The notes under the pieces were generated by a model. That model made no database searches. It was not told where the DNA came from and saw nothing but the letters and a program-made list of their open reading frames with translations. DNA of 37,671 nucleotides from positions 1 to 37,671 of the IMG/VR virus record IMGVR_UViG_3300045049_000256; one strand, 5' to 3'. Source of the DNA: a virus. Shown piece by piece: positions 8,326 through 20,943 of the stretch. Positions within the stretch are counted from its first letter, which is position 1. Each line of letters begins with the position of its first letter. The position numbers were made by a program, and so were the translations under genes.

Positions 8326-8538
8326 TCATTGCGTGCGGGCTTCCGTGCGGCCGCAGATGTGGTCACGGACGCGGCACAGGGTGGCGTGACCCGGGTTATC
8401 AATCTTTCCGTTGACGAACTTTGAGATCCACGACTGGCTGACCCCTGACAGGTAGGCGATCGACGGCCACTCGCCGCGGCACCGGTTGAGAAGGTCTTTG
8501 ACCTCGGAGATGGATACAGCGTCAGAAGAAGCTTCCAT
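8326..8538 (-). CDS. Cro-like helix-turn-helix regulator (70 aa)
   Basis: A small HTH protein: the segment WPSIAYLSGVSQSWISKFVN places the recognition helix (SQSWISKFVNG) after the turn, as in Cro/CI-type regulators. It is divergent from the repressor gene, with 72 bp between the two starts that contain a pair of matching operators, so it would be the first product of the lytic (leftward) promoter and the antagonist of the repressor. The ribosome site is weak (GGGG, one to four bases before ATG). The C-terminus lacks any further domain. Family membership is clear; the Cro role is inferred from position. Confidence 0.8.
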   Translation of the reverse strand: MEASSDAVSISEVKDLLNRCRGEWPSIAYLSGVSQSWISKFVNGKIDNPGHATLCRVRDHICGRTEARTQ

Positions 8539-8550
8539 GCCCCGATGGTA

Positions 8551-8586
8551 AGGAAAGAATTCCTAAAAGTAAAGGAAGACTTTCCT
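8551..8586. promoter_or_regulatory. paired immunity operators
   Basis: AGGAAAGAATTCCT (8551-8564) and AGGAAGACTTTCCT (8573-8586) share the form AGGAA-N4-TTCCT and start 22 bp apart, two helical turns. They lie in the gap between the divergent Cro-like and repressor genes. A third half-site pair, TTCCTAGGAA, abuts the second copy. Confidence 0.7.
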
Positions 8587-8610
8587 AGGAATGTTTGGCA
8601 TTCTCCGTCT

Positions 8611-8886
8611 ATGGCGAAAAGTGTGAACGACGTACTGGCGGAGAACATCGCGCGGTACATGGAGGCCAATCCCGAGCTCGGGACTCAGGCGCGCTTGGCG
8701 GCCCGGTCGGGCGTGGATCAAAAGACCATCAGCAACTATCTGAACCCGCAGCGCCGGCTAGCCACGGCCGCGGGGCGTCCAGGTTCGGCCAAGCTGTCGG
8801 AGGTGGAGAAGATCGCAGCGGCATTTGGTCTTGAAGCATGGGAACTGATCAAGCCGCTCAAGTCTCGCGTCCGTCGGGAACCATGA
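8611..8886 (+). CDS. CI-like repressor, short form (91 aa)
   Basis: The protein MAKSVNDVLAENIARYMEAN contains a helix-turn-helix (about residues 28-48: TQARLAARSGVDQKTISNYL) followed by a short basic linker and a helical end. It has no C-terminal peptidase domain, so it cannot be cleaved like lambda CI. The ATG at 8611 is chosen because the frame upstream, although open from 8545, runs through the two operators. The next gene begins one base after its stop. It would bind the AGGAA-N4-TTCCT sites, repress the Cro-like promoter and keep lysogeny. Induction must then come from another route, such as proteolysis or an antirepressor. Confidence 0.75.
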   Translation: MAKSVNDVLAENIARYMEANPELGTQARLAARSGVDQKTISNYLNPQRRLATAAGRPGSAKLSEVEKIAAAFGLEAWELIKPLKSRVRREP

Positions 8887-10951: not shown

Positions 10952-13474
10952 GTGAATGCTACCACCAGCGCGCGCAAGCGTGCAACCTCGTCATCGGAAA
11001 CCCGCCCTGCCAAGGGTTCAGATGCTTCCGCGCCGATCTACTCGACCAACGACCTGCCAGCGCTGTACGACGTGATCTCCACGCAGCTCGAGAAGCTGCG
11101 CCGGATCGACGACGACGTGACGGGCGGCTTCACGATCCGCATCTGCATCATCGCGCGCCACGCTTTCGCGGCATTCCTCAAGAATCGCGACTCTTGGCCG
11201 GTCGCCGTGCAGGCCGAACGGCTGTTCGACATCGAAGCGCTGTTGATGGGCGCGCAGACCTGCGAAGCCATCGGGCAGGAGCGATACGCGCTGCTCGACA
11301 CGGCCTTGCGCGCGATCGACCGAGCCACCGATGTCCTCATGGAGCATCCCGACTACAAGACCGCGGACACGGTCGCGGATGAATCTATCTACGGTCAGCC
11401 GAAGCCGGCCCGGGATGCGGCGCGCAACGTGGAGCGCGCCGCATGCATCCTCAACACCATCGCCGGGATTGCTGCCACGATCGAGAGGTTCGGCGTGCAA
11501 CTGGTTAGCGCCTCGGGTGAAGACTCGCGCCCGAACGAAGTCGAGGCCCTGTCCTGTGGTGTCCGCGACCTGAGCGCGCAAATCGGTCTCCTTGCCGATT
11601 TCGCCATGGAAGAAATGGGCAGCGCTTCCGTCACTCGCGGCGGCATCCGCGAGTGGCTCCTTCCCCCGGTCTACGGCAAGACAAGCAACACCGAGACGGG
11701 GGGCAACGGCATGAATACGCCCCGCACAACCCGCCTTTCGGCCGAGGCTGCCGAATCCATCCGCACGAACGCGCTGACTCTCGCGCGCCAAGCCCTGAAC
11801 GGTATGTTGGCCGCAGAAGATGCCGGCGAGACGGGCGACAACGTGGCGCGCGTCCTGCGCCATGCCGAACGTCTCCTTGACGCGTGGGTGCGTGAGGTTG
11901 ACGCGTCGACGCTGCACACATGGAGCGCGCATGCCTGGTCCGACCGGCTGCACGACATCGACTCTATGGTCCTGTGCGCGATCGCGTACGAGAGTGCTCA
12001 CGCGAACGATTCACCTCGCCTTGCGGTGCTCGACGGCTCTGTTCGAGTGCCGTTGCTCGACATCCTGCAATCGCTCGATCGCATCGACTTGCCCCAAGCG
12101 GACCAGGGCGATTATGAGCGCCACTCGTTCATGCGAGGCAAGCAGATGGTCTGTGATCTCCTCGACGAGATCGCGTCCGAAGCGGCGAGCGACCAGTTTG
12201 ACATGTGGGCCAAGCATCGCGGTCGAGACGTGCCGCAGCGGAATGTGGTCCACGAGTTCCTGGAGCAAATTCGCTTCGATGAAGGCGCGCTTGCGGGAAT
12301 CGGCGCAACGCTCACCGGCATGATTGGCATGACGATGAACGGCTCTCTGCCAGAGAGCGATCAGATTCGGAACGCCACCTACGAAGACTGTTTCGGCACT
12401 CCGGACATGATGTACATGGGCGAGCCGGGCTTCGACGGAGATGCGGGTTCAAGCATGCAACCCGAAGATAGCTCGAAGGACGAGGCCTCCAGCGAGTGGC
12501 GCGCGAAAGTCCGCGAGCTCGTCGAGAAGGTATCAGACATCGCGGGTCATGCGATCAACGCCTTTGACCTGCAGGATGGCGATGCCGTGTTTGCCGAGCT
12601 GCTGCTGCAAACGGCCATGTTCCTTGCGGAGGACCACACCGGAATCCTCGACAAGGAACCTGGCGAGGTCCGCCGCGAGTTCATCAACAAGCTTGAAGCG
12701 TGCTTCATGGGCGCGCGCAACATGCCCGATGTTCCCGAAGTCGTCTTCGCAGCCGCTTTGCAGCCCGCAATCGATCTGTTGAACGAAGCGTGGGACGTGA
12801 CCGAGCGGGAAGAGAGCCGACTCCATGCCGAGGCGCGGCAACAAGACGCTGCTAGGGAACGCGATCAGCGCCGGGAGCGTGTTGAAGGCGGGAACGGCTC
12901 GCATCACGACAACATGCTGTACACCGTTGATGTGGTGCAGGACGCGATGGACGCCTTCGCGCAGCTCGGTCCGCAGCAATCTCAGGCGATCGGACCCTCA
13001 CGCGAGCTTTCAATCATTGCGCGTGCCAAGGCCGATGTCGGGCGCCACGGGGACGCCATGGAACACCTTCATCAGATTTACGCCATGGCTTCCAAGATCG
13101 AGTGCACGAGCGAAGAGCAGGCGCAGCGACTTGGCGACATTCTCGACGCTCTTGCTCCCATCGAGAAGTACTTCGCGGAAGTTGAGAAGAAGCATCTGGA
13201 GAAGGAAACGCGCGAGCAGTTCGCTCGCGAAGTGTCCAATTTTCTGAAGCGGCTGCGTGGCGGGCGCGCCGATGAAAAACTGACAGCGGCCGAATTGGCG
13301 ATAGCCGAAATGTCCCGTGCGACCATCCTGTCGGCGATCGGCGATGATGACGTTTCACTCGAAGTACTGCGGGTGCAATTCGAGCGGATAAAGGCTCTCG
13401 CTGGCCCGCTGCGCGATGAGCGGCAGAAAGACGGGACGCCCATACCGGGAGCGCAGGAGTCGGAGCACCGCTGA
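10952..13474 (+). CDS. large unknown protein next to the integrase (840 aa)
   Basis: The largest gene in the window and not one I recognise. After a disordered N-terminus (MNATTSARKRATSSSETRPA) it is almost entirely acidic and helical, without membrane segments or enzyme motifs. It appears to contain related helical blocks: compare FDIEALLMGAQTCEAIG (about 92-108), HDIDSMVLCAIAYES (about 335-349) and NKLEACFMGARNMPD (about 583-597), each followed by a helix of the type 'ALxPAIDLL'. A coiled coil lies near 725-760. The start is a GTG with GAGGA upstream; its TGA overlaps the next ATG (TGATG). It is in one rightward unit with the integrase, so it is likely made in lysogens. A scaffold or sensor role is conceivable. 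Confidence 0.8.
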   Translation: MNATTSARKRATSSSETRPAKGSDASAPIYSTNDLPALYDVISTQLEKLRRIDDDVTGGFTIRICIIARHAFAAFLKNRDSWPVAVQAERLFDIEALLMGAQTCEAIGQERYALLDTALRAIDRATDVLMEHPDYKTADTVADESIYGQPKPARDAARNVERAACILNTIAGIAATIERFGVQLVSASGEDSRPNEVEALSCGVRDLSAQIGLLADFAMEEMGSASVTRGGIREWLLPPVYGKTSNTETGGNGMNTPRTTRLSAEAAESIRTNALTLARQALNGMLAAEDAGETGDNVARVLRHAERLLDAWVREVDASTLHTWSAHAWSDRLHDIDSMVLCAIAYESAHANDSPRLAVLDGSVRVPLLDILQSLDRIDLPQADQGDYERHSFMRGKQMVCDLLDEIASEAASDQFDMWAKHRGRDVPQRNVVHEFLEQIRFDEGALAGIGATLTGMIGMTMNGSLPESDQIRNATYEDCFGTPDMMYMGEPGFDGDAGSSMQPEDSSKDEASSEWRAKVRELVEKVSDIAGHAINAFDLQDGDAVFAELLLQTAMFLAEDHTGILDKEPGEVRREFINKLEACFMGARNMPDVPEVVFAAALQPAIDLLNEAWDVTEREESRLHAEARQQDAARERDQRRERVEGGNGSHHDNMLYTVDVVQDAMDAFAQLGPQQSQAIGPSRELSIIARAKADVGRHGDAMEHLHQIYAMASKIECTSEEQAQRLGDILDALAPIEKYFAEVEKKHLEKETREQFAREVSNFLKRLRGGRADEKLTAAELAIAEMSRATILSAIGDDDVSLEVLRVQFERIKALAGPLRDERQKDGTPIPGAQESEHR

Positions 13475-13734
13475 TGCCGGCCGTAACGCTGCAGATCGCA
13501 CTTCCCGACGCGCCGACGCTTTCGCGTGAGAGGCTCGAGGAGATCACAGGCCGCACCAGAACGCCGAGCATCATGGCGTGGCTAGACGAGCATCACTGGC
13601 TCTACCAGCTCGACGCCAGCGGAAATCTGGTAGTCGGGAGCCTGTACGCGCATCTTCGCCTCGCCGGCCTCGATCCAGCGGAAGTGTCATTGCCCGACAT
13701 CCCAGACGGCTTTGACCTCGGCAAGGTGCGTTGA
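13474..13734 (+). CDS. DUF4224-like, integrase-associated protein (86 aa)
   Basis: The N-terminal part, LSRERLEEITGRTRTPSIMA followed by WLDEHHWLYQLDASGNLVVG, matches the DUF4224 pattern (L-S-x-E-x-L-x-E-I-T-G, a spacer, then W-L and a strand pair with Asp-x-x-Gly). These short proteins are regularly encoded just ahead of tyrosine integrases in proteobacterial prophages and are suspected to be excisionases or integrase partners. Here it is coupled on both sides: TGATG with the 840-residue gene and TTGA with the integrase. It is the best candidate for the recombination directionality factor. Confidence 0.75.
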   Translation: MPAVTLQIALPDAPTLSRERLEEITGRTRTPSIMAWLDEHHWLYQLDASGNLVVGSLYAHLRLAGLDPAEVSLPDIPDGFDLGKVR

Positions 13735-14969
13735 ACGTCTGGGTCGCACTGCACTACGCTATTGACGCCATGAGGCTCCCTTACCTCCGCATCCGCAAGT
13801 ACAAGAACAAGGCTGGCAAGGTCTGGCTTGGCTACTACTACGAGCCGCCGCGCGGCTCAGGCGGCGAGCCCGGCGTTCGCCCTAAGCCCGTTGCGCTCGG
13901 GTCCGAGATGCTCCGTAAGGGCGACGACGCGACCGCGCGCGTGCCGCCGCCTGAAGTCCTGGCGAAGTACTCGGCAGTGGCGAAGGTGAAGATCGCCGAC
14001 ACGCCGGCACAGGGCACGATCGCTGCGGTCTACGAGCGCTGGCACGAGTGGGCTGTCGCGGAGGTCAAAGCCGACCGCTTAGGGAAACGCACGCTGCAGG
14101 ACTATGAGAAGCACTGGCAGGAGCTGAAGCCGGTTTTCGGCGCTGGACCGATCGATGGGCTCACGCAGCCGCTCATGCTCGCCTACTACGACAAGCGAAG
14201 TTCGAAGGACCGGGCGAAACGCGAAATCGCGTTCCTCGGCCTGATGTGTTCGTGGGCCAAGCCCCGCGGCTACATGCGCGCTCCCAATCCGGTCGACCGT
14301 GGCCTGCGCCATCAGCTCAAGCTGCGGAAAGTGCCTAAGCCTGCAGTGCCGGCGAACGTGTATTGGGTCGTGTGGTCGTGCGGTGATCAGCTGGTGCGCG
14401 ATACCCTCGACCTTTCGTACATGCTCGCCACGCGGCCCAGCGAGGCCCTGCGCGTGCCGATGCCTCCCGCGGGCGCCGTGCAAGTGGAAAAGCATCTGCC
14501 CAAGACTTCCAAGCGCGGCCGCGCGATCGTAAAAATCCCGATCACGCCCGACCTGCAGGCGTTCATCGATCGACGGCGAGCGCTGCGGCCCGAGAGCCTG
14601 TACCTGCTGTTCGATGACGATGGGAAGCAGCTGCTGCCCCAGGGCATGGTGCGCACGCGGCTGTACAAGGCCATCAGGCTGGCCAAACAGGTATGCGAGG
14701 AGCTGCAGGTTCCTTGGGTGAACTTCACGCGCCAGCAGCTGCGGCCCACCGCGCTCACCGCCACGAACCGCGTGCACGGCCGAGGCGAAGCGCGCAAGCT
14801 CGCCGGGCACACGACCGAAAAGCAGACCGCCGACTACATCCGCGAGCCCGAGATTGCGCAAGCGGCCACGCTGCCGCCGTCCGATCCTGTGCTGCTTGAG
14901 CGCGTGAAGGCGGCACTTCGCGCACGCACATCGCCGAAGGAGGAGCCCAATGCAACTGCTGCAGCATGA
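13731..14969 (+). CDS. int: tyrosine integrase
   Basis: Phage integrase of 412 residues with an N-terminal arm-binding and core-binding region (about 1-200) and a C-terminal catalytic domain. Visible catalytic residues are R235 (TRPSEAL), a lysine in the PKTSKRGRAIVKIP hairpin, R338 in the QQLR box (Gln instead of the usual His), H360 (KLAGH) and nucleophile Y369 (ADYIRE). The start is a TTG overlapping the upstream stop, with AAGGTG before it; an in-frame ATG at 13770 (MRLPYLRIRK) has no ribosome site but begins where the conserved part starts. It would recombine the attP 550 bases downstream with the 3' end of a host tRNA-Phe gene. Confidence 0.93.
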   Translation: MNVWVALHYAIDAMRLPYLRIRKYKNKAGKVWLGYYYEPPRGSGGEPGVRPKPVALGSEMLRKGDDATARVPPPEVLAKYSAVAKVKIADTPAQGTIAAVYERWHEWAVAEVKADRLGKRTLQDYEKHWQELKPVFGAGPIDGLTQPLMLAYYDKRSSKDRAKREIAFLGLMCSWAKPRGYMRAPNPVDRGLRHQLKLRKVPKPAVPANVYWVVWSCGDQLVRDTLDLSYMLATRPSEALRVPMPPAGAVQVEKHLPKTSKRGRAIVKIPITPDLQAFIDRRRALRPESLYLLFDDDGKQLLPQGMVRTRLYKAIRLAKQVCEELQVPWVNFTRQQLRPTALTATNRVHGRGEARKLAGHTTEKQTADYIREPEIAQAATLPPSDPVLLERVKAALRARTSPKEEPNATAAA

Positions 14970-17512: not shown

Positions 17513-18436
17513 ATGTGCTACTCCGCGAAGATCGTTGCTGAATGGAAGAAGTACCAGCGCGCGTACGGCGTGGAGATCAGCGTCGAGGATTACTTCGACC
17601 TGTTTTGGCGTCGGCGGATGGGCGAGAAGATCAAGATTCCGAAGGGGATCGAAGATGGCTTCGCCGAGCCGGAAAACGCTCGTGAGCGCGAGATTAAAGC
17701 TCTCATCGATGAATGGCGAAGCACCGAGTCCACGCGACTCGAGCAAGAGCTTTTCAAGCAGCGCCGACGCCTTGCTGACGCTCAGCGGATTCTCGCAGCC
17801 AAGCCGACGAAGAAGGCAGCAGACGATCAGCGCATCGCGTCGAGCAAGACAGATCAGATCCTCGGTTGGCTTGAGGATTTGCAGCGCACCACGCCGGCAG
17901 AGCGCGATGCGCGCATCTACCCACAGCACTACTCGCATGTGATCGTGATGGAGGGCGGCAGGCGCGTGCTCAAGCCGATGCGTTACGGCTGTCGCCCCGC
18001 AGGCAAGCCGGCCTTCTACGACACGAAGTTCCCCGGCACGTACAACGCGCGCCGCGACAACCTCGAAGGGTTCTGGAAAGGGCAATTCGGCTACAGCCAC
18101 GGAATCATGGTCGCCACCGAGTTCTTCGAGAACGTCGACCGTGATGGCAAGAACGTCGTGCTGGAATTTCGGCCGGCGACGCGGCACCCAATGCTCGTCG
18201 CGTGCTTGTGGTCGCGGTGGACCGCACCAGGTGAGTCCGATCTTCTATCGTTCGCTGCGATCACCGATGACCCGCCGCCCGAGATCGCCGCAGCCGGTCA
18301 CGATCGTTGCATCGTGCCGATCAGGCCGGAGCACATCGACGCTTGGCTTGAACCCGGACGATCAACGCCAGCGTCGCTGCAGGTCATTCTCGATGACCGC
18401 GAGCGCCCTTACTACGAGCACCGGCTCGCAGCTTAG
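17513..18436 (+). CDS. SRAP-family (HMCES/YedK-like) protein
   Basis: SOS response-associated peptidase-type protein, a family that shields abasic sites in single-stranded DNA by a covalent bond to Cys2. Visible residues fit: C2 (MCYSAK), N178 (TYNARRDNL), E206 (TEFFEN) and H263 (GHDRC). At 307 residues it is longer than YedK; the extra part is a charged helical insertion at about 45-135. The ribosome site is weak. It diverges from the unknown operon across the LexA box. It may protect phage DNA during damage-induced replication. The family call is firm; control by the box on this side is inferred. Confidence 0.88.
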   Translation: MCYSAKIVAEWKKYQRAYGVEISVEDYFDLFWRRRMGEKIKIPKGIEDGFAEPENAREREIKALIDEWRSTESTRLEQELFKQRRRLADAQRILAAKPTKKAADDQRIASSKTDQILGWLEDLQRTTPAERDARIYPQHYSHVIVMEGGRRVLKPMRYGCRPAGKPAFYDTKFPGTYNARRDNLEGFWKGQFGYSHGIMVATEFFENVDRDGKNVVLEFRPATRHPMLVACLWSRWTAPGESDLLSFAAITDDPPPEIAAAGHDRCIVPIRPEHIDAWLEPGRSTPASLQVILDDRERPYYEHRLAA

Positions 18437-18849: not shown

Positions 18850-18957
18850 GGCACACTACCGCTGAGCCGCCCGCCATAGACTGGGAGGCGAAAGAAGGCC
18901 GGCAAGAGCGTTTGCTGCCTGCGGCCGGAGAATAATTGGCGAGAGGGAGGAGATGTC

Positions 18958-19410
18958 ATGCCGATTCCGGCATTGGATGGTCACGGCCTACTCCCGGTAG
19001 GCATTCATGATTGCACATGGCCTGAGGTCGAAGAGCGCTTCTGCTGGAATGCAAAGCGTGTCGAAATATTCGGCAAGCTGACGGACTTCTTAGCCCAGAG
19101 ATGGGCACCCTTGAATCTGAACTTGCCGATCTTCGTCGACGGCAGTTTCACCAGGCAGACAGACACGCCAAAGGACGTCGATATCGTAATTGACGCATCC
19201 GTCGTCGACGCCGCCGCGATAGTCCCTGTTTACCTGCTTTGGTTCGTTCGTGATGAAATCAAAGCGAACTTCATGGTTGACTTTTGGTTCAAACATCCGT
19301 CATTGCCGACCGATCTCTCCGCGTATTTCTGCTATACCGGATTGAAAGCCGGCGCGGAGCTTGGCCTTGACGCCAAGCACCCTAAAGGCATACTGCGAGT
19401 CAATCCATGA
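18958..19410 (+). CDS. DUF6932-like nucleotidyltransferase-fold protein (150 aa)
   Basis: The opening (LPVGIHDCTWPEVEERFCWN) and the motif IFVDGSFTRQTDTPKDVDIV match a family of small nucleotidyltransferase-fold proteins: Gly-Ser at 62-63, the metal-binding pair D73 and D75, and a possible third Asp at 108 (VDFWF). Such proteins may transfer a nucleotide to a protein or tRNA, as MNT- and AbiE-type toxins or antitoxins do, but the substrate is unknown. GGGAGGAG lies a few bases before the ATG. The stop overlaps the next gene's start (ATGA), so the two act as a unit. This pair is more AT-rich than the surrounding phage genes, which suggests separate acquisition. Confidence 0.75.
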   Translation: MPIPALDGHGLLPVGIHDCTWPEVEERFCWNAKRVEIFGKLTDFLAQRWAPLNLNLPIFVDGSFTRQTDTPKDVDIVIDASVVDAAAIVPVYLLWFVRDEIKANFMVDFWFKHPSLPTDLSAYFCYTGLKAGAELGLDAKHPKGILRVNP

Positions 19411-20372
19411 GCCAGCACGACCACACCGTCGAAGAAACCAAAATGTTCTTGGAGAACATGGTTGGCTTCGCCTTGAATGCTCGCGCTGCCGGAATCGAGG
19501 TTACGCCTCAGCAGGTAGTTGCGTCGACTCTCAGCAAGATCGTAGAGATTGCGGAACAGCATTTCCCTCTCGCCAGAGTGCTAGACAGCTCTGACTTGGT
19601 GCTGCACGCCGAAGGACCCGGCGCAGCGCAGTCCATGCCTTGGCTGTCGGCGTTGAACTGGATGACGACCACCGCAGAATCAAACGTGCGTAAGGTCGCG
19701 GCTGCGTACTTTGATATGCGCGGCGCAAACGGCAAAGAGATCGCTCGAAAAATGGATCCCCGCCTGACTGGCATCGCGCCGGGAAGCCTTTGGATGGGCA
19801 TCAAGCTTGAGGAAGCACAAGAGGCAGTCCTTGATCTGGAACAAGGTGAGGCTCATACGCTTAGCGATGAACTTCAAACGCTCCCCGGCTTGGTTCGCTT
19901 CATAGACGATGAGGGCATGCGACCGGGCGTCGAAGAATATGTCTCGGACCCCGCGATGCGCGACATCGGGTTAGCCGCCCTATTGCGGTTTTCACCCACC
20001 GGCCGTCGTGGCATCCATACATTGGAAATCGGCTCCCGCGGACAGGGTCTGGTTAGCCTGAGTCAGCGCGAGCGTGTTGTTCTGCGCGAGGTGATCGAAC
20101 GTCCGGATTTGCGGCAGTCAAGAACCGGTTCATTTGTTGGCGAGATCCGCGAGGCGGATTTGGACAAGTCACGCCTTCACCTGCGCGGCGTGGAGGGGAT
20201 TGGCACGCTGCGCTGTATCGTCGCCGAGATGAGCGCGGACCAGGCGAGAACGCTCCTCGGCGAACGAGTTTTGGCGATCGGCAGCTACCAAGTCGACAAG
20301 AACGGTCGCCCGCGCCTTTTGATTGTTGATCGTTTCGAGCCGGCTCCGTTGCCGAAACAACTGCCGCTTTAA
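19407..20372 (+). CDS. unknown partner of the nucleotidyltransferase gene (321 aa)
   Basis: Two parts are visible: an N-terminal helical region (about 1-160, starting MSQHDHTVEETKMFLENMVG) and, after a linker, a C-terminal beta-rich module from about 240 to the end (GSFVGEIREADLDKSRLHLR ... VLAIGSYQVDKNGRPRLLIV), which looks like a small ligand- or peptide-binding barrel. No catalytic motif is recognisable. It is coupled to the nucleotidyltransferase gene by ATGA and ends at a strong terminator, so the two genes form a closed operon. Toxin-antitoxin partner, target, or defence sensor are possible roles; none is shown by the sequence. Confidence 0.7.
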   Translation: MSQHDHTVEETKMFLENMVGFALNARAAGIEVTPQQVVASTLSKIVEIAEQHFPLARVLDSSDLVLHAEGPGAAQSMPWLSALNWMTTTAESNVRKVAAAYFDMRGANGKEIARKMDPRLTGIAPGSLWMGIKLEEAQEAVLDLEQGEAHTLSDELQTLPGLVRFIDDEGMRPGVEEYVSDPAMRDIGLAALLRFSPTGRRGIHTLEIGSRGQGLVSLSQRERVVLREVIERPDLRQSRTGSFVGEIREADLDKSRLHLRGVEGIGTLRCIVAEMSADQARTLLGERVLAIGSYQVDKNGRPRLLIVDRFEPAPLPKQLPL

Positions 20373-20676: not shown

Positions 20677-20943
20677 CTACTTCTTCAGGCACTCGCTCAT
20701 GAACTTCTTCCGCTCGTCGCCTTTCTTATCGGCGGCCTGAGCGTTGCAGTCCTTCATCTTTTGCTGCTGCGGGGTCAACTTCTTCGCTGACAAGCACTCC
20801 TTCATGAACGCCTTGCGTTCGTCCCCCTTCTTGTCCCCGGCATCCTTGTTGCAGGCGGCCATCTTGGTCTGCTGCGAGTTCTCAGCAGCGTGGGCAAACG
20901 TGAACACGAAGCCGCAGATCGCGGCAAGGGCAAGTTTCTTCAC
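20677..20943 (-). CDS. exported PsiF-repeat protein (88 aa)
   Basis: The GTG at 20943 is chosen since GGAG lies seven bases upstream and the product then begins with a clean signal peptide, MKKLALAAICGFVFTFAHA, cleaved before AENS. The ATG at 20955 would add four residues and has no ribosome site. The mature part contains two copies of the PsiF repeat: KMAACNKDAGDKKGDERKAF and KMKDCNAQAADKKGDERKKF, each ending in MxECL. PsiF is a phosphate-starvation-induced exported protein of unknown function in enterobacteria. Here it follows the lysis genes, so it is either a late envelope protein or a lysogenic-conversion gene. Confidence 0.8.
   Translation of the reverse strand: MKKLALAAICGFVFTFAHAAENSQQTKMAACNKDAGDKKGDERKAFMKECLSAKKLTPQQQKMKDCNAQAADKKGDERKKFMSECLKK

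Follow-up and report, generated by a model that had tools for sequence, protein, structure and literature searches.

A far-diverged DUF6932 nucleotidyltransferase gene pair in a phage genome as a candidate toxin–antitoxin or defence module

What a small nucleotidyltransferase (NTase) and its unrecognised partner do for the phage that carries them is the question raised by two hypothetical genes, A and B, of a 37.7 kb viral contig from IMG/VR, which was analysed over its whole length of 37,671 nucleotides (the window). The original prediction, made from the sequence alone, took the two genes for an operon that might act as a toxin–antitoxin or defence system. The pair is a strongly diverged new variant of a candidate system that is listed in PADLOC and uncharacterised, and the two hypothetical genes can now be read as a testable hypothesis.

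The locus and its surroundings

The two reading frames and the ATGA by which they are coupled are exactly as predicted, and so are the ribosome site of their own and the terminator (Table 1). The pair is also more AT-rich than its surroundings, with a GC content of 56.8% against 61.1% for the record, which is the lowest value among 363 stretches of the pair's length (1415 bp). It lies on the strand of the cI-like and integrase genes, the lysogeny strand, where it closes the block that follows the integrase, and it is the last gene pair ahead of the convergent lysis genes on the opposite strand. About 10 kb separate the pair from the phage's own cI, so that it stands outside the cI slot, and nothing at the pair could be recognised as a convincing promoter for expression in the lysogen. 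Both genes are under purifying selection: a comparison of two bacterial relatives (loci L002 and L003) gave dN/dS values of about 0.19 (A) and 0.05 (B).

Table 1. Positions of the gene pair, its signals and motifs, and landmarks of the phage genome in the window
Feature	Position	Strand	Description or basis
Gene A	18958..19410	+	DUF6932 nucleotidyltransferase, 150 aa; matches to Pfam PF22014 and PADLOC PDC-M63A
Gene B (protein P2)	19407..20372	+	321 aa, divergent homologue of PDC-M63B
ATGA stop/start overlap of A and B, 4 bp	19407..19410	+	sequence
Shine-Dalgarno GGGAGGAG	18945..18952	+	5 nt before the ATG of gene A; sequence
Intrinsic terminator, stem-loop with UUCG loop	20392..20409	+	AGCCACC-UUCG-GGTGGCT, then TTTTT
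G62-S63 of the NTase motif, gene A	19141..19146	+	alignment of relatives
D73-V-D75, gene A, putative metal-binding carboxylates	19174..19182	+	alignment of relatives
D108, gene A, third carboxylate	19279..19281	+	alignment of relatives
Predicted OB-fold domain of B, residues 237-312	20115..20342	+	AF2 and Foldseek
CI-like HTH repressor of the window phage	8545..8886	+	HMM E 5e-6; same strand as the A-B pair
cro-like gene, divergent from the cI-like gene	8326-8538	-	switch region
Integrase	13731..14969	+	phrog_1 E 1.4e-18

Three other genes of the window may be mentioned in their own right. About 0.5 kb separate a SRAP gene (HMCES/YedK-like; 17513-18436) from the pair downstream of it; a SRAP-like gene also adjoins DUF6932 in a bacterial locus (L017, 698-1363), and SRAP turns up once more among the viral flank proteins that were scanned, a recurrence that may be due to chance. 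Upstream of the integrase, positions 10952-13474 encode an 840-aa protein without a Pfam or PHROG match. Adjoining the lysis genes, a gene for a psiF-repeat protein (20677-20931; PF07769, E 2e-32) represents unusual phage cargo.

The two proteins

Gene A matches DUF6932 (PF22014) with an E-value of 2.9e-23 and 83.3 bits, against a gathering cut-off of 27, over profile positions 1-141 of 142, as well as the PADLOC model PDC-M63A (E 1.3e-10, 39.5 bits); no CD-NTase model is found among its PADLOC matches. The NTase motif noted in the original prediction is real and is extended by a third carboxylate, D108. Across the alignment of 67 distinct relatives, seven residues, P13, R34, G62, S63, P71, D73 and D75, are invariant, K143 is found in 66 sequences, and position 108 is D in 61. 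In the AF2 model (mean pLDDT about 75; 74.6), G-S follows one strand, D-x-D opens the next and D108 lies in a third, which is the arrangement of pol-beta-type NTases. Foldseek matches of this model are weak, none falling below E 0.04 and NTases starting at E 0.11, and those of NTase type include the MNT antitoxins 7ae9, 7bxo and 6m6u, HI0073 and 2rff. On the plain reading of alignment and model, gene A apparently encodes an active pol-beta-type nucleotidyltransferase. A borderline similarity to botulinum neurotoxin G chains among PDB sequences (E 0.14-0.16) was rejected as chance. Neither A nor B gave close relatives when viral contigs, phages and plasmids were scanned with the protein sequences themselves, the sole exception being a weak plasmid match of A from Aliarcobacter (E 2e-3).

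Protein P2, the product of gene B, has no match in Pfam, NCBIfam, PHROG, PADLOC or the PDB sequences, and direct hmmscan gave no PADLOC match to PDC-M63B at E-values up to 1; it is not a common housekeeping enzyme, an identity that would have spoken against the predicted role. When P2 was aligned by hhalign with a profile of 51 distinct M63B-like proteins, the two were collinear along the whole length with a score of 34.4, which none of 200 column shuffles reached (maximum 23.5, mean 14.3) and which lay above that of the reversed profile (17.2), at an hhalign probability of only 37%, so that the similarity is to be taken as a remote homology backed by synteny and not as a database-grade match. 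The score became significant only once 51 distinct sequences were used; an earlier profile comparison with few M63B sequences was not significant, 2 of 60 shuffles scoring about equal or higher. Only G64, G122 and S123 are invariant in the M63B alignment (51/51), and P2 keeps the G-S as G126-S127.

The beta-rich C-terminus that had been noticed in B corresponds to a predicted OB barrel. Residues 237-312 of the AF2 model follow the order strand-strand-strand-helix-strand-strand, with block pLDDT values mostly of 63-86, and this is the only part in which the model is confident, the remainder being unreliable. Foldseek relates these residues to the OB domains of LysRS, archaeal RPA, PolD DP1, RecG and CusF/SilF (probability about 1, E 0.003-0.05), while searches against viral models returned low-quality OB-like or disordered matches only. 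From the predicted fold, the domain may bind nucleic acid. On the basis of profile comparison, conserved gene order and the predicted OB fold, gene B is identified as a very divergent, remote form of the PDC-M63 B subunit, and its divergence shows the limit to the reach of current detection models.

No conserved catalytic residues were found in B. It does not appear to be a HEPN toxin, as P2 has no RX4-6H and M63B has no R or H conserved at 80%, nor a RexB-like membrane protein, as no membrane segment is present and the maximal Kyte-Doolittle value over 19 residues is 0.84 for P2. Kinship to DUF7946/DUF7947 found no support: P2 has no Pfam match, a DUF7947 search of G000-G003 was empty, and the DUF7946 sequences were too few for a profile comparison. 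The M63B proteins of two bacterial loci (L009, L023) show weak matches to the PDC-M32A and PDC-M02B models (E 1e-4 to 1e-2), which hint at a wider superfamily of such partner proteins.

Relatives, partners and genomic settings

Full-length relatives of P2 (56-74%) were found by the bacterial genome scan in a Rhodocyclaceae MAG (L002, 74%), a beta-proteobacterial MAG (L003, 71%) and a Gallionella MAG (L004, about 57%). In each of them A lies directly upstream with the same ATGA overlap, so that both genes are present in four of four P2-type loci, the window included. Profile searches of 369 and 300 genomes returned no further P2-type genes beyond the seed genomes; P2-type B is rare. The conserved co-occurrence that the original prediction proposed to look for is also seen in viral contigs found via M63B alone, in scans with two M63B alignments, where DUF6932 stands immediately upstream in 68 of 68 loci, the ends of the two genes again overlapping. 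No near DNA match to the pair of locus L035 was found in E. coli genomes.

DUF6932 itself is present in 17 of 398 genomes of a phylum sample and 5 of 369 of a class sample (the seed genome counted in each), and its downstream neighbour is usually a protein of about 310 aa. In L009, L023 and L024 this partner matches PDC-M63B models, with E-values down to 1.5e-154, and the partners in L011-L013, L016-L019, L022, L025 and L029 are related to these (profile E about 1e-7). Other DUF6932 genes are followed by Xre-HTH-M78 proteins (L010 1450-3374, L014 130-2038, L015 1459-3197, L028 194-1932) or by an Xre-HTH protein (L027), those of L014, L027 and L028 being typed by sequence likeness and not by family scan; no nameable partner was seen in L020 and L021. 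The combination of DUF6932 with Xre-HTH-M78 is a two-gene system different from the A-B pair. Its partner in L015 matches PD-lambda-2_B (E 1e-75), and the one in L028 resembles it. PD-lambda-2, an experimentally confirmed abortive-infection toxin–antitoxin system (PMC9519451), consists of a HigB-like gene, an Xre-M78 gene and a third gene; in L015, DUF6932 takes the place of the HigB-like gene ahead of the PD-lambda-2_B match, whereas the partner in the window is not Xre-M78.

In the tree of A, the P2-type sequences form a separate clade (99/98) on long branches, beside the Xre-partnered clade (94/86) and not with M63. Partner type is strongly clustered on this tree, as is expected if A and B bind specifically. 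The window pair resembles PDC-M63 in the match of A to PDC-M63A, in gene order, overlap and sizes, in the collinearity of B with M63B and in its carriage by a prophage, and differs from it in a B that the PADLOC, Pfam, NCBIfam and PHROG models do not recognise and in an A whose nearest relatives are Xre-partnered DUF6932 proteins.

Among viruses, 29 of 40 distinct loci have a CI-like repressor gene immediately upstream of A and in its orientation, a count made up of 24 strict cases and 5 with overlaps of 20-38 bases (perhaps from mechanical ORF starts). The repressor model used was built iteratively from four seed genes, which makes individual assignments approximate; taken together, they accord with PHROG and Pfam scans of 82 flank proteins (22 phrog_4 repressor, 17 Peptidase_S24). 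The isolated coliphage mEpX1 carries, in this order, cI (gp43), A (gp42), B (gp41) and N (gp40), with the pair at L100 3525-4933, and PhiR30_1 has cI, A and B followed by a small hypothetical gene of opposite orientation and then kil, with the pair at L101 3579-4933; the identity of the hypothetical genes behind cI as a DUF6932/PDC-M63B pair was confirmed in both. Both rexAB of lambda and bstA lie behind cI, and the second component of RexAB is an inner-membrane protein. Exclusion genes are known from the slot between cI and n, where lambda has rexAB and BTP1 has bstA (PMC8585504), and the mEpX1 pair lies exactly in this slot, between cI and N. Lysogeny-linked expression is likely for the relatives in this slot. 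As far as the searched literature shows, a link of DUF6932/PDC-M63 to the cI slot is unreported. The likeness to the prophage exclusion systems, lambda RexAB, P. putida RexAB and BstA, lies in this shared position of relatives such as mEpX1 and PhiR30_1; unlike them, the pair combines an NTase with a partner devoid of membrane segments, it showed no sequence relation to them, and the window copy is not beside cI.

The neighbouring defence genes that the original prediction had suggested looking for adjoin 8 of 23 bacterial DUF6932 loci, against 1 marginal match among 68 ORFs in 20 regions picked arbitrarily from part of these genomes; the neighbours were chosen by eye, the numbers are small, and related loci do not count as independent samples. 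L003 lies beside a complete Thoeris system (ThsA at 2e-180 and two ThsB), restriction genes adjoin DUF6932 in L002, L011, L013 and L029, and the other defence-type neighbours are a TIR protein (L025), a NERD protein (L009) and a second NTase (L019).

Possible function of the pair

The candidate reading as a toxin–antitoxin or defence system is well supported: it gains from the co-occurrence, the PDC-M63A match, the defence neighbours, the cI-adjacent relatives and the antitoxin-like partners. Against it stands the sole published deletion of a relative, that of PDC-M63AB in E. coli NILS69, which left the plaquing of 10 virulent phages unchanged (PMC12409345) and is the strongest evidence against a defence role.

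We infer that the pair is a lysogeny-expressed abortive-infection or toxin–antitoxin-like module. Spelled out, this makes it a far-diverged DUF6932/PDC-M63 module on a temperate phage, in which a lysogen-expressed A, restrained by B, aborts infection, an explanation to which we give slightly better than even chances. A would be a catalytically competent pol-beta-type nucleotidyltransferase, and B a non-enzymatic partner, predicted to consist of an N-terminal helical hairpin, a middle domain and the C-terminal OB fold. In the uninfected lysogen, B would keep A inactive; a superinfecting phage would be sensed by B, for example through nucleic acid on the OB fold, and A would be released; the freed A would move nucleotides onto a cellular target (tRNA or protein), with the outcome that growth stops and the infection is aborted. 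An NTase effector held by its partner and freed on infection, with the OB fold as the likely sensor, is the simplest model. It fits with A as the effector that A is constant while its partners alternate between OB-type and antitoxin- or regulator-like Xre types, and MenT toxins demonstrate that NTases can halt translation via tRNA modification (PMC10435456, PMC11375011). Counting against this explanation are the remote similarity of P2 to M63B, the placement of A beside the Xre-partnered clade, the position of the window pair off the cI slot and the missing promoter. The Xre-M78 protein of PD-lambda-2, and not its small upstream partner, is toxic alone (PMC9519451), which counts against A as the effector.

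Two-gene modules around a small NTase with G-S and D-x-D are found both in MenAT and AbiE, where the NTase is the toxin, and in HEPN/MNT (type VII), where it is the antitoxin; DUF6932 is a family distinct from either, B is a different type of partner, and a HEPN partner with RX4-6H is absent from the pair. MntA, of a fold similar to that of NTase toxins, acts as an antitoxin (PMC7641770), and the roles might be reversed in a type VII-like system, with B as the toxin and A blocking it by nucleotide attachment. That minimal NTases of MNT type are antitoxins in HEPN/MNT modules (PMC7641770, PMC11586414), that the best Foldseek matches of A, weak as they are, include MNT structures, and that the second protein of PD-lambda-2 is the toxic one all speak for such an arrangement. 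P2, however, has no HEPN motif, B has no conserved catalytic residue, and A is also partnered with unrelated Xre or Xre-M78 proteins, so that it would have to modify unrelated toxins; we regard the reversed roles as unlikely.

The position beside CI in 29 of 40 viral loci and the negative NILS69 deletion (PMC12409345) would also suit a pair that serves prophage regulation or maintenance (lysogeny stability, induction timing) and not defence. Chromosomal copies in bacteria, however, adjoin Thoeris and restriction genes, and the cI-n slot is known to house the exclusion genes rexAB and bstA (PMC8585504), which leaves a purely regulatory role rather improbable. It is very doubtful that A makes a nucleotide signal on infection for which B is the receptor and effector, loosely as in CBASS: the active site of A, an enzyme of NTase fold, is intact, and the OB fold of B is of a kind able to bind nucleotides or nucleic acid, but A is a minimal DUF6932 protein of 150 aa that matches no CD-NTase model in PADLOC, B lacks a known effector domain in Pfam, NCBIfam, PHROG and PADLOC, and two genes that overlap in translation and keep a fixed arrangement point rather to a physical complex.

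If the explanation with A as the restrained effector is extended to the whole family, DUF6932-B modules might constitute, besides RexAB and BstA, a third family of prophage exclusion systems linked to cI, widespread but uncharacterised and with an NTase effector, and the window a new subtype with an OB-fold sensor beyond current models; we hold this wider proposal tentatively, at somewhat less than even chances. What was a bare PADLOC candidate is now tied to an NTase active site, an OB-fold partner and the lambdoid rex slot. Isolated coliphages carry the intact pair (mEpX1; one record gives the host as K-12 MG1655), which makes the function of the family testable in laboratory strains.
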